Positions 2,035 to 5,927 of a DNA stretch of 31,023 nucleotides are shown here, one piece after another. The DNA is from a virus. The number at the start of each line of letters is the position of its first letter. Position 1 is the stretch's first letter. Both the position numbers and the translations under genes were made by a program. Where the stretch lies: positions 1 through 31,023 of IMG/VR virus record IMGVR_UViG_3300024891_000009; one strand, 5' to 3'. The notes under the pieces were generated by a model that saw nothing but the letters and a program-made list of their open reading frames with translations, did not search any database and was not told where the DNA came from.

Positions 2035-2229
2035 TTAGCCTTTGGGTTTTGATTTTGTGGTTACGGCATCGTCCGACGTGACGATCTCGATATCGCCGGC
2101 ATTCAGGCGGCGTAGCCAGTAGTTGGAGGCAATTACGGTTTCTCCGCCGGGCAGCAATTGCAGGCCGTTTTCCTTGCGGACTAGAGCTGTTGTGACAGGT
2201 TTTATTATGATGGGTTGGCCTAAAATCAT
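2035..2229 (-). CDS. DUF2635 protein (Mu gp38-like), stand-alone copy
   Basis: A 64-residue protein beginning MILGQPIIIKPVTTALVRKE, with GGE, YW and RR motifs typical of the DUF2635 family found just before the sheath in Mu-like phages. The exact role is unknown; position implies tail morphogenesis. A homologous stretch (about 23 of 50 residues identical by my own alignment) forms the N-terminus of the large protein at 3114-4910. The phage therefore has two copies of this module, one free and one fused. The stop is 6 bases before the sheath start. Confidence 0.85.
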   Translation of the reverse strand: MILGQPIIIKPVTTALVRKENGLQLLPGGETVIASNYWLRRLNAGDIEIVTSDDAVTTKSKPKG

Positions 2230-2238
2230 GCCGCACTC

Positions 2239-3111
2239 CTATGGAAAAGTTGCAGGGTCTGTGTAGGTGTCGTTGTAGAATTTGCCACCCGCTGCAAAGG
2301 CCGCTGCATATAAGGCGTCATCGATAGCCTTTACCTGGGCATATGTCCGCCCAGACGCAGTCAGATCTTCGGCATAAGCTCGATAGAGTATTCGGCTAGG
2401 CGCTTTGTTTTGGTTAAAGCCACCCCAAGCACCGAAGTTACCGACAACGAGGGTGATATTGTCTGTCGCTCCAGGTCCAGAACCTGAGATTCCAGATGGA
2501 TTAATCGTCAGATGCACTTTTTCAAGTGGCACCGCTGAAACATCCTCTGTATGAGCTGCATCTCGGCCTTTATTTGAGCCCGCACAACTAGGTATACCTG
2601 CCGCCGCGTAGAATAAGAAATTGGTCGTGCTGGGTGCGAAATGAAATGGAGACTGAACCGATGCGGAGGATAGCGCGGCCCTTGTTACAGCATACCAAAT
2701 TGAAAAGTAATAAGAACGGGTTGGGTTGCCGTGGACATAATCACGAATAGCAGCTGGAAAGTTTACCCCCCAAAAATTCAACCCCGCCGTTTGGTTAACA
2801 TGGCTCACTAATCCATGCACGCCGCCTTTTCCGGTGCGCTCCGTAAGCATCTTCGTGGCTTCATTAGGGTTTGTGGAGGAAACGACACCAGACAACGATG
2901 CTTGCGAACCGGAGCCTAGTAACTCGGCAGCCTGTTTCCATGCCACGTTTGGTATGGCAGAAGCCGCCCCTGGAATCCCTGTAAATCCTCCAAGCGAATG
3001 CCCAGGATCGAAAAGAAACAGGGACCCATCTATTAACAAATAATCGTCCCTCAGTTTTTGAAGTCCGGTTCCTGTAAACGTCGTATCTGACAACACTATT
3101 TTTTGACCCAT
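2239..3111 (-). CDS. Unknown tail-region protein, probable fibre or receptor-binding accessory
   Basis: A 290-residue protein from the ATG at 3111, with AGAGG a few bases upstream. A TTG at 3120 in the same frame is less likely. I do not recognise the family. The protein is rich in Gly, Ser, Ala and aromatic residues, with segments such as RSYYFSIWYAV and DNITLVVGNFGAWGGFNQN, which suggest a beta-sandwich (lectin-like or carbohydrate-binding) fold. It has no signal peptide or membrane segment. It starts two bases after the stop of the SGNH fusion gene. Its codon use is visibly more AT-rich than the flanking tail genes. It and its neighbour look like a cargo block inserted between the DUF1834 and DUF2635 genes. 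Confidence 0.6.
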   Translation of the reverse strand: MGQKIVLSDTTFTGTGLQKLRDDYLLIDGSLFLFDPGHSLGGFTGIPGAASAIPNVAWKQAAELLGSGSQASLSGVVSSTNPNEATKMLTERTGKGGVHGLVSHVNQTAGLNFWGVNFPAAIRDYVHGNPTRSYYFSIWYAVTRAALSSASVQSPFHFAPSTTNFLFYAAAGIPSCAGSNKGRDAAHTEDVSAVPLEKVHLTINPSGISGSGPGATDNITLVVGNFGAWGGFNQNKAPSRILYRAYAEDLTASGRTYAQVKAIDDALYAAAFAAGGKFYNDTYTDPATFP

Positions 3112-3113
3112 CT

Positions 3114-4910
3114 TTACCAACCTCTTCTATTAATTTCGGACGCCACATAAGCGGCAATTTGGGCATGAAATGCGGTGGTGAAGTGCACGCTATCGATACG
3201 CAACGAACGCGGCACGGTCTCTTTAGCAACATCGGCCAAATCATCGGCGCTGCCATTGTTGAACTGGAACGAAAATTCACGGATTTTTATCACGCGATCG
3301 CCGTATGTCTGCACCGCCCAGTCCTCGATCGCCTTGATATTCGTGAGCGTTGACGAACCGGTGCCTTCTGTTGTCGATTGACCGCTGGTTAATGTGCCTC
3401 CGTTTGGCGGGGTAAGAATCAGGAATCGCTTTTCGATGGTCGTCTGTTTGCCAACACAAGACGCAATATCACGCTTAACGTCATCGGGGGTCCCAAGATT
3501 GTTACGACCAATGAAGATCAATAAAGTATCGCGATCATGCGTACTAATGTCGGGGATAAACGGCATCTTGGCGCCGACGTTAACCACGCTTCCTGCCGTT
3601 GTCCTGGTAAAGGTATAGTTGCCACTTCCGTCACGACTCAATGTTCCAGGAATGCCTGCAATTGAGCCTACAATGGTTTGGGTACCTTGCGCAGACAAAA
3701 CATCGATGGTTCTCGATGTCACCGCAACACCGCCGCTGGCTGGGATTTGATTACCGGTCAGCGTCAATAAGCTCACATAGGCGCCAAATTTCGCCGCTTG
3801 TTGCGTCGAGGTTTCGCCGCCGACCGCCTGTGTGACATGAGTGCGCGCCGATATTAAGGCCACGAGTGCTTGACGCCATGTCGTTTGCGACCCCGCGCCT
3901 GCGGTCAGGCTGTCGCCAATGAAATAGAGATTTTTACTGGGTTGAAGATATTCAGACCCTGCAACAACGGCCACCGGGAAATCTCCTATGACCTTGCCTT
4001 CATTGGTAATCGCCAGGCCGATTTTTCCGGTGCTGTCCACTACTGCCCAGGCATAACCGGAATCTTTGATGACAGACTGAGGTAACAGCGCCTGCAACTC
4101 TGTCGCCGATTGCACAGAAAACTTTGGCATATGCACGGCTCCCGCTGCATCGATCATGAGTGCCGCCTGGCCCAGAGTATCGACGATTGCCCAGACATAG
4201 CCCGATTCTAAAGGCATGACTTTGCCGATATATTGGGAGTTTGCGCTAGGGTAAATGGCAATCAATGTAGAACTACTAGCGTTAACACGTCGGTACTCAT
4301 AGGCGGCAACATCACCAGAACCCTGCACCTTGAACGCAACCCCATCCGCCACAGCAGCGCGCCCAGTTGGTTCGTCAACGTAAACGCCAGCGCCAATGAT
4401 AGCCGCATCCCTAGCAGCCTCGGCGGCCGTCTTAGCATTAGCAGCCAAAAGTGCAGCAGTTTCGATGGCAGTAATACCTCCATCTCCCCATATCGTCCCG
4501 TTGGAGACCGAATAAGATCCGTCCGCCGTCCGCCAATTGCCGATGCCTAGATCGGCCGCGGCAGGGCGATCATCGACAGAATCGCTGTAACCATCGCTGA
4601 ACCACCAGCCTTGAGTCGATGTGCATTTGATGTAAATCTTATCCGTTATGATCTCGCACGACTTTTTGCCAAATTCAGGCGCAGGCGGCCGGTCAGCAAG
4701 CGCGCCATACAGCGTAATCGCCCGCTCGCCAATTGGTGGATTTCGGATCAAGCCCGCGCCGATGACTTCCACGCTGCCGTCCGCTACCCGCCGCTGCCAA
4801 TAGGGGCTTCCCCGAACAATTTCGCCACCCGCAGACAGATTGGAGCCGTCCGGTTTTTTCACGACCGCGCCATTCAGAGGGCGTATTGAAACAGGTTGTC
4901 CAATAATCAT
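3114..4910 (-). CDS. DUF2635-SGNH/GDSL hydrolase fusion, tail fibre-like protein
   Basis: A 598-residue multidomain protein. Residues 1-50 are a DUF2635 module (MIIGQPVSIRPLNGAVVKK, then GGE, YW, RR). Residues ~75-175 have Trp-rich and Ala-rich fibre-like segments. Residues ~235-266 and ~283-313 are two copies of a repeat with the pattern SGYxWAxVD...G...L.I...G.V. Residues ~326-598 are an SGNH hydrolase: block I GDSLTAG with Ser334, a Gly pair at ~364-365, block III GRNN at 468-471, and block V DSVH with Asp573 and His576. The catalytic set is intact, so it may deacetylate or de-esterify a surface polysaccharide. The DUF2635 part would anchor it where the free copy acts. The hydrolase assignment is firm; the virion role is inferred. 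Confidence 0.82.
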   Translation of the reverse strand: MIIGQPVSIRPLNGAVVKKPDGSNLSAGGEIVRGSPYWQRRVADGSVEVIGAGLIRNPPIGERAITLYGALADRPPAPEFGKKSCEIITDKIYIKCTSTQGWWFSDGYSDSVDDRPAAADLGIGNWRTADGSYSVSNGTIWGDGGITAIETAALLAANAKTAAEAARDAAIIGAGVYVDEPTGRAAVADGVAFKVQGSGDVAAYEYRRVNASSSTLIAIYPSANSQYIGKVMPLESGYVWAIVDTLGQAALMIDAAGAVHMPKFSVQSATELQALLPQSVIKDSGYAWAVVDSTGKIGLAITNEGKVIGDFPVAVVAGSEYLQPSKNLYFIGDSLTAGAGSQTTWRQALVALISARTHVTQAVGGETSTQQAAKFGAYVSLLTLTGNQIPASGGVAVTSRTIDVLSAQGTQTIVGSIAGIPGTLSRDGSGNYTFTRTTAGSVVNVGAKMPFIPDISTHDRDTLLIFIGRNNLGTPDDVKRDIASCVGKQTTIEKRFLILTPPNGGTLTSGQSTTEGTGSSTLTNIKAIEDWAVQTYGDRVIKIREFSFQFNNGSADDLADVAKETVPRSLRIDSVHFTTAFHAQIAAYVASEINRRGW

Positions 4911-4911
4911 C

Positions 4912-5514
4912 TCAATCCTGCAAGTTGGTTAAATCGTCAGTCAATTCGGGCCGGCTCGCCGTATAAACCGGCGGCTCGGCGATCCATTTTTGATGCTCGG
5001 CCTGCGTCTGGTGCGGGTCCACATCGTAATCGGCATGGAAGGTCGCGAAGTCGGCCATGGCTGCCAGGGCGGTGTCATTGATCGCCGCATTCGTCGCCTT
5101 GGCCGTCAACTGCAAACTGCCTGCCTGGAGCCCGCTGTTTAGCCAGACAGCGCCCTTGGCGAAGTCCGCGCTTTTTGCCGACCAGACCGTGCTGGTCGTT
5201 TTCAAACTGTCCAGATAGGAAGCCAGGGTGTCGATGATCTGGTATAAGCCTATCGTCTGCGCATCGCCATGCCGGGAGGCTTCGACGCCGCGGGCATTGC
5301 GGGCGATGCAGATCAGATCGAAGCGGACCTCGGCATACGCATCACCATAACCCACAGGGCCGGCGACGGTATAAACCGCCGGCGCAGAACTCGCGAAGCG
5401 TTTCACCACCGTAGCGCCGTCGCCATCCGGCATGACCGCCACTTCGCGCAGGTTCGCCGCGATCGGCGAAAGCTTCACGGCGGCGATCAGTTCCTGTTCC
5501 AGCTCGACCAGCAT
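4912..5514 (-). CDS. DUF1834 family phage protein (Mu gp37-like)
   Basis: A 200-residue protein that begins MLVELEQELIAAVKLSP and continues through a domain typical of DUF1834 (gp37 of Mu-like phages), with a segment reading AEVRFDLICIARNARGVEAS and a helical IGLYQIIDTLASYL. It lies between DUF1320 and the DUF2635-containing genes, the canonical order. The family is presumed to contribute to head-tail joining or tail completion; no catalytic motif is visible. It ends two bases before the start of the DUF2635-SGNH fusion and begins three bases after the DUF1320 gene. Confidence 0.85.
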   Translation of the reverse strand: MLVELEQELIAAVKLSPIAANLREVAVMPDGDGATVVKRFASSAPAVYTVAGPVGYGDAYAEVRFDLICIARNARGVEASRHGDAQTIGLYQIIDTLASYLDSLKTTSTVWSAKSADFAKGAVWLNSGLQAGSLQLTAKATNAAINDTALAAMADFATFHADYDVDPHQTQAEHQKWIAEPPVYTASRPELTDDLTNLQD

Positions 5515-5516
5515 GA

Positions 5517-5927
5517 TTAAAAACTATCCCGGCTAAATACCGACGGGCTGGAGCTGAACTCCGCCGTGCCGCCGGCAACTTCCGGCAGGGAGCCGGCGGT
5601 GTCCGGCGCCAGCTTGATCTTCCCGGTCGCGACCTTTTCCAGATACTTGATCGCATTGTCGTAATCGTCCTTGACGCGGTCCGTCACCTGCTCGCGATAC
5701 AGCCGATATCGGGTAATGTCGCAGGCCAACCGCTTCAAGTTGGCGGGCACCACCGCCAGCGGCAGATAGTTGATCAGATAGCCGTCGATCTCCGCGTCGG
5801 CGTCGGCGATCGCGACGTTCAGCACCGTATCGTCGATCACGCCAAGATTGTCCAGGTCGGTGAGCTGGATCAACTCCCGCTCGCCGCCTGGTCGATCCAA
5901 TAGGTCGGCTTTGGCGCAGTAGCTCAT
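5517..5927 (-). CDS. DUF1320 family phage protein (Mu gp36-like)
   Basis: A 136-residue protein beginning MSYCAKADLLDRPGGERELI. It contains the family pattern with an acidic ADADAEIDGYL segment, LKRLACDITRYRLY, and DRVKDDYDNAIKYLEKVATG. These are characteristic of DUF1320 proteins (Mu gp36), which are related to head-tail connector (gp6-like) adaptors. It follows the HI1506-like gene and precedes DUF1834, as in Mu. It probably binds the portal ring to complete the head-tail connection, but that is inferred from the fold family. Confidence 0.88.
   Translation of the reverse strand: MSYCAKADLLDRPGGERELIQLTDLDNLGVIDDTVLNVAIADADAEIDGYLINYLPLAVVPANLKRLACDITRYRLYREQVTDRVKDDYDNAIKYLEKVATGKIKLAPDTAGSLPEVAGGTAEFSSSPSVFSRDSF

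Follow-up and report, generated by a model that had tools for sequence, protein, structure and literature searches.

The domain DUF2635 (Mu gp38) is encoded nearly universally beside the sheath family of Mu, yet it has no established function. The IMG/VR record IMGVR_UViG_3300024891_000009, analysed here over its whole stretch of 31,023 nucleotides (the window), stems from a Mu-like contractile phage and carries the domain twice, once alone and once at the N-terminus of a fibre-like protein with SGNH hydrolase motifs. What does so small a module do at the head of such a protein? The natural fusion to a host-binding enzyme links DUF2635 to the tail, either in its assembly or in attachment to it, and is of interest because it makes the function of DUF2635 (Mu gp38) testable.

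Two DUF2635 copies between tail terminator and sheath

The gene order on the minus strand of the window is gp36, gp37, the fused gene (3114-4910, 598 residues), a gene of about 290 residues, the stand-alone DUF2635 gene (2035-2229, 64 residues), sheath and tube. The flanking genes are counterparts of the Mu head-tail adaptor gp36 (5517-5927; PF07030, E 2e-35), the tail terminator gp37 (4912-5514; PF08873, above cut-off), the sheath gpL (550-2028; PHROG 165, E 3e-163) and the tube gpM (184-540; PF10618, E 1.5e-29). Both DUF2635 copies thus lie between gp37 and the sheath, which is also the place of the domain in Mu, SfV, PG1, AH07, martha and others; the stand-alone copy is the positional counterpart of Mu gp38. 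PHROG 490 and the RefSeq Mu record NC_000929 label gp37 counterparts, here the product of 4912-5514, as 'portal protein'. This label looks wrong, since gp37 is the tail terminator according to the cryo-EM structure of Mu (PMC11915804).

In Mu the late genes are colinear, whereas late-type genes of the window are split over both strands, either by a true inversion or as a contig artefact. Protease-, head- and tail-like genes occupy 9171-1 on the minus strand. For 9285-30678 on the plus strand, reading of the translations points to gpG-, terminase-, portal- and F-like ORFs, of which the latter three kinds sit at the far right end of the contig as given.

The first-pass annotation had described DUF2635 as duplicated, with one copy fused to the fibre, and this description holds. 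Both ORFs are present, and the 64-residue protein aligns with residues 1-50 of the 598-residue protein without gaps (23/50 identical residues or 46%, 34/50 positive, E 1e-14 in a BLASTP pair comparison). None of 100,000 composition-preserving shuffles of the partner reached 23 identities (maximum 14, mean 4.5). Against PF10948, the stand-alone copy scores 39.3 bits and the fused copy 30.8 bits, both above the Pfam cut-off of 26.6. The two modules are also alike in predicted structure: AlphaFold2 gives both copies the same small strand-strand-helix-strand fold (strands 6-11 and 30-33, helix 36-43/44, strand 47-49) at a pLDDT of about 92 and 96, an agreement that is not fully independent because many alignment rows are shared by the two jobs.

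A fold search of DUF2635 against the PDB gave nothing significant (best E 1.6); the highest VIA Z, 4.5, came from GINS domains and ribosomal proteins and is within noise. A relation to Mu gp35/FluMu_N, raised by a weak viral fold match, found no support in a profile comparison.

The conserved DUF2635 positions P, L, G, W, RR and G(D/S)V are retained in all six distinct fused copies known from the search described below. Substitutions among them are D46S, R18K and K10R or K10Q. The Asp of the G-D-V motif is present in 65/70 stand-alone copies and replaced by Ser in 6/6 fused copies, which amounts to divergence of the fused head at a key position. Having lost this Asp, fused DUF2635 may not share the partner of the stand-alone copy.

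A tree was built of 76 DUF2635 domains from only 66 columns. It groups the fused copies into a single clade (97/80) nested among stand-alone copies of the same lineage (95/94), with the long-branch rows L122 and L067 adjoining the fused group. Duplication followed by fusion is therefore the simplest origin. The next-nearest relatives, with 84-86% sheath identity, have the order gp37-DUF2635-sheath and an empty site. Elsewhere the domain is typically small, stand-alone and located before the sheath, as the first-pass annotation had assumed; this is true of every copy seen outside the lineage of the window. At the loci collected via the sheath, DUF2635 directly precedes the sheath in nearly all cases, and it is only in the lineage of the window that long C-terminal extensions occur. 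Among 767 genome draws scanned with Pfam there were about two dozen DUF2635 matches, and in none of those re-read did the protein continue for over 50 residues past the domain. Apparent fusions of DUF2635 to the preceding gene (L069, L130, L132, L133, L134 and L137, as well as L163 and L170 from the genome survey) were rejected, as each looks like an out-of-frame extension of the DUF2635 ORF into that gene; an internal Met precedes the domain wherever the sequence was read.

A constant head with exchangeable tips

The fused protein begins with the DUF2635 module (residues 1-52, 4755-4910), followed by a spacer with two 'DRPxA..' modules that is modelled at low confidence (residues 53-145, 4476-4754), a predicted long Ala-rich helix (residues 146-173, 4392-4475) and a variable C-terminus, in which an SGNH hydrolase-like receptor-binding domain spans residues 326-598 (3117-3935). 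The SGNH motifs occur in order: GDS at 332-334 (S334), GG at 364-365, GxN at 468-470 (N470) and DxxH at 573-576 (D573, H576). The intact Ser/Asn/Asp/His set reported previously is thus confirmed, though the hits to Pfam GDSL models, at 26.6 and 20.9 bits, fall short of the respective cut-offs of 32.9 and 23.6 bits. The C-terminal half matches PHROG 11419 'tail fiber' (4e-55), the solved tail spike 9sij (E 1.6e-7) and other phage minor tail or tail fibre proteins; the model of this part has a pLDDT mostly under 60. With the Pfam GDSL scores sub-threshold, it is PHROG 11419 and 9sij that support a receptor-binding protein. Two SGNH tail fibres from Klebsiella prophages are active esterases (PMC13123978), and by analogy with these tested fibres and from its own motifs the 598-residue protein may be an esterase as well.

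The first-pass annotation had proposed a search for other DUF2635 fusions. Searching virus contigs with the 598-residue protein, its head and the sheath revealed five further distinct fusions in sister contigs; the 598-residue protein itself recurs at 100% identity in three other metagenome contigs. In L006, the same head is carried by a protein of 764 residues with polysaccharide-deacetylase similarity below cut-off. The fusion in L009 has 887 residues, matches the PHROG 4201 tail-fibre family and shows GQSN and QGE motifs of a sialate-esterase/SGNH-like type, while that in L078 (903 residues) has GDS and DxxH motifs. L074 and L076 encode fusions of 636 and 647 residues, respectively, each followed by a gene for 469/470 residues. 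Across the six distinct fused proteins, all of which keep the DUF2635 head, the tails are SGNH esterase-like in three cases, polysaccharide-deacetylase-like in one and of unknown type in two.

The fused proteins of the window, L006 and L009 are about 90% identical over residues 1-172, and identity is near zero thereafter; the collapse falls within residues 160-200, just past the predicted helix. A constant head with exchangeable tips across six proteins is the pattern of receptor-binding proteins. Virion-attached receptor-binding proteins usually combine a constant N-terminus with exchangeable enzyme or binding modules.

The gene at 2239-3111, between the two DUF2635 genes, was absent from the first-pass account. 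It encodes 290 residues from an ATG just after the stop of the fused gene, or 293 residues from an upstream TTG, and its product is similar to the C-terminus of the PHROG 36751 minor tail protein. In the sister contigs this second gene is either replaced by a dissimilar one, as in L009, or missing. It varies together with the C-terminus of the spike (290 residues in the window, 276 in L009, 469/470 in L074/L076, none in L006 or L078), which would fit a cassette in which partner gene and fibre tip travel together. GDSGSP, preceded by a conserved His, marks the products of L074:4383-5792 and L076:4380-5792 as candidate chymotrypsin-like proteases; neither Pfam (E under 0.1) nor PHROG gave a family match for them.

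Is it the DUF2635 module that holds these proteins on the particle? The spacer could serve instead and fix the spike to the baseplate or to another site, leaving the DUF2635 head with another role in attachment or none. This reading gains from the window, L006 and L009, in which spacer and DUF2635 are equally conserved (88-100%), and loses in L074, L076 and L078, where spacer identity drops to 18-56% while DUF2635 stays at 62-79%. For L074/L076, identity is 62% over DUF2635 residues 9-50, 28-30% over residues 63-105 and 18-20% over residues 106-145; DUF2635 is the best-kept part in the most divergent fusion pairs. A canonical baseplate fibre gene, which also speaks against the spacer as the attachment part, is present in the same phage: the contig G002, which carries the same 598-residue protein, encodes, ordered as is usual in Mu, gp47, gp48, a 299-residue Gp53-like_C fibre and a tail-fibre-assembly-like protein. 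Attachment through the spacer is accordingly considered improbable. Since a baseplate-type fibre gene lies at its usual position, the DUF2635 spike is additional, and the 598-residue protein looks like an extra receptor-binding protein.

The head could also be a passive remnant without function, if a spike gene happened to insert downstream of a duplicated beginning of DUF2635; a copy made next to its parent is indeed the simplest origin. Fused DUF2635 is under purifying selection, however, with a dN/dS of 0.07-0.24 over residues 1-52 (Nei-Gojobori, based on few substitutions), and the head is retained in six different proteins, which makes a functionless remnant very improbable.

The stand-alone protein in virions and in assembly

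The first-pass annotation had further proposed that DUF2635 is an anchor that docks cargo on the virion. The fusion itself, the constant head with exchangeable modules and the selection on the head favour this proposal; the record of the stand-alone protein in virions does not. Mu gp38 is listed as probably structural, yet it was not resolved in the Mu structure (PMC11915804). The GenBank record of Mu names it 'putative sheath terminator protein' with the evidence unstated. Literature searches on DUF2635 and Mup38 returned nothing, and the main text of the virion proteomics paper on the Mu-like SuMu does not mention gp38.

A weak fold match links DUF2635 to a 68-residue protein of phage 7-7-1, taken to be gp125 as the length fits. 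This protein (JQ312117; L175:4733-4939) is encoded between terminator gp124 and sheath gp126 and matches PHROG 208. Its PHROG 208 counterpart in phage Milano is gp19 (MK637516; L176:2501-2704), located between gp18 and gp20. Both Agrobacterium phage proteins are distant members of PHROG 208/DUF2635 and are annotated just as hypothetical. A text search found no mention of gp125 in the 7-7-1 structure paper or of gp19 in two cryo-EM papers on Milano; the Milano tail paper does discuss a gp125, but this is a baseplate protein of Milano, different from that of 7-7-1. The list of 7-7-1 virion proteins from mass spectrometry lacks gp125 and includes gp124, gp126 and the 28-residue gp117A. A weak match of 7-7-1 gp125 to the N-terminus of the Skarpretter/C130_2 tail spikes was taken as chance, as the spike carries an annotated Head_binding domain and the DUF2635 profile does not match its N-terminus.

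Given that it is unresolved or unmentioned in the structure papers checked and missing from the 7-7-1 mass spectrometry list, stand-alone DUF2635 is either a low-copy, disordered part of the virion or an assembly factor. As an assembly factor, for instance a helper that holds sheath or terminator while the tail is built, it would be no ordered virion component; the fused head would recruit the spike to the growing tail or aid its folding, and another part of the protein would attach it lastingly. Such a role would agree with the non-detection in three neck and tail structures and in the 7-7-1 list, and with a gene located directly before the sheath gene at nearly every locus. The non-detection carries little weight, however, since terminator gp124 yielded a single peptide in the same mass spectrometry data and a handful of 7-kDa copies arranged in a flexible ring might escape notice. 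Moreover, a covalent fusion to exchangeable host-binding domains that is kept under selection is the usual layout of a head for lasting attachment. On balance, a purely assembly-related role appears unlikely, with a somewhat better claim than attachment through the spacer.

A proposed spike and its relation to known systems

The 598-residue protein is probably an extra receptor-binding spike or fibre attached to the tail through its DUF2635 head, all docking sites taken together. We infer that it is part of the virion. Its head, a diverged paralogue of the stand-alone DUF2635 of this phage, is connected by spacer and helix to an exchangeable C-terminal module, here a putative SGNH domain of the polysaccharide O-acetyl-esterase type. 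The tail component that binds stand-alone DUF2635 would recognise the fused head as well, so that the spike is attached to the particle, and the C-terminal enzyme would bind and deacetylate a host surface sugar. Judged by gene position, from which the neck or terminator is suggested as the site, docking would most likely occur around the terminator or the top of the sheath. More specifically, and rather tentatively, DUF2635 might mark a docking site at the terminator/sheath end, with the second copy as a universal plug for interchangeable sugar-modifying neck spikes beside the baseplate fibres. That such a head could act as a natural display system, as suggested earlier, is a reasonable conjecture.

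The head resembles Mu gp38/DUF2635 (PF10948, PHROG 208) in scoring above the Pfam cut-off and in its predicted fold, and the stand-alone copy stands in the order gp37-gp38-L. DUF2635 usually occurs alone with about 55-100 residues, whereas in the lineage of the window it is also duplicated, fused N-terminally and altered from G-D-V to G-S-V. A conserved N-terminus and an exchangeable enzymatic C-terminus are shared with modular receptor-binding proteins of the SGNH/polysaccharide-deacetylase kind, such as PHROG 11419 members, the Klebsiella prophage fibres (PMC13123978) and gp63.1 of coliphage G7C (cited in PMC13123978). Unlike these, the 598-residue protein starts with DUF2635, and its gene is located between tail terminator and sheath, whereas theirs follow the baseplate genes. 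The Anabaena phage A-1(L) has neck fibres in addition to those of its baseplate, anchored by gp82N on pentadecameric gp5 (PMC10966104). DUF2635 is not reported for them; for the spike of the window, a neck position may be suggested by gene position. A modular tail fibre or spike is of a known kind, and the DUF2635 head on such a spike is new.
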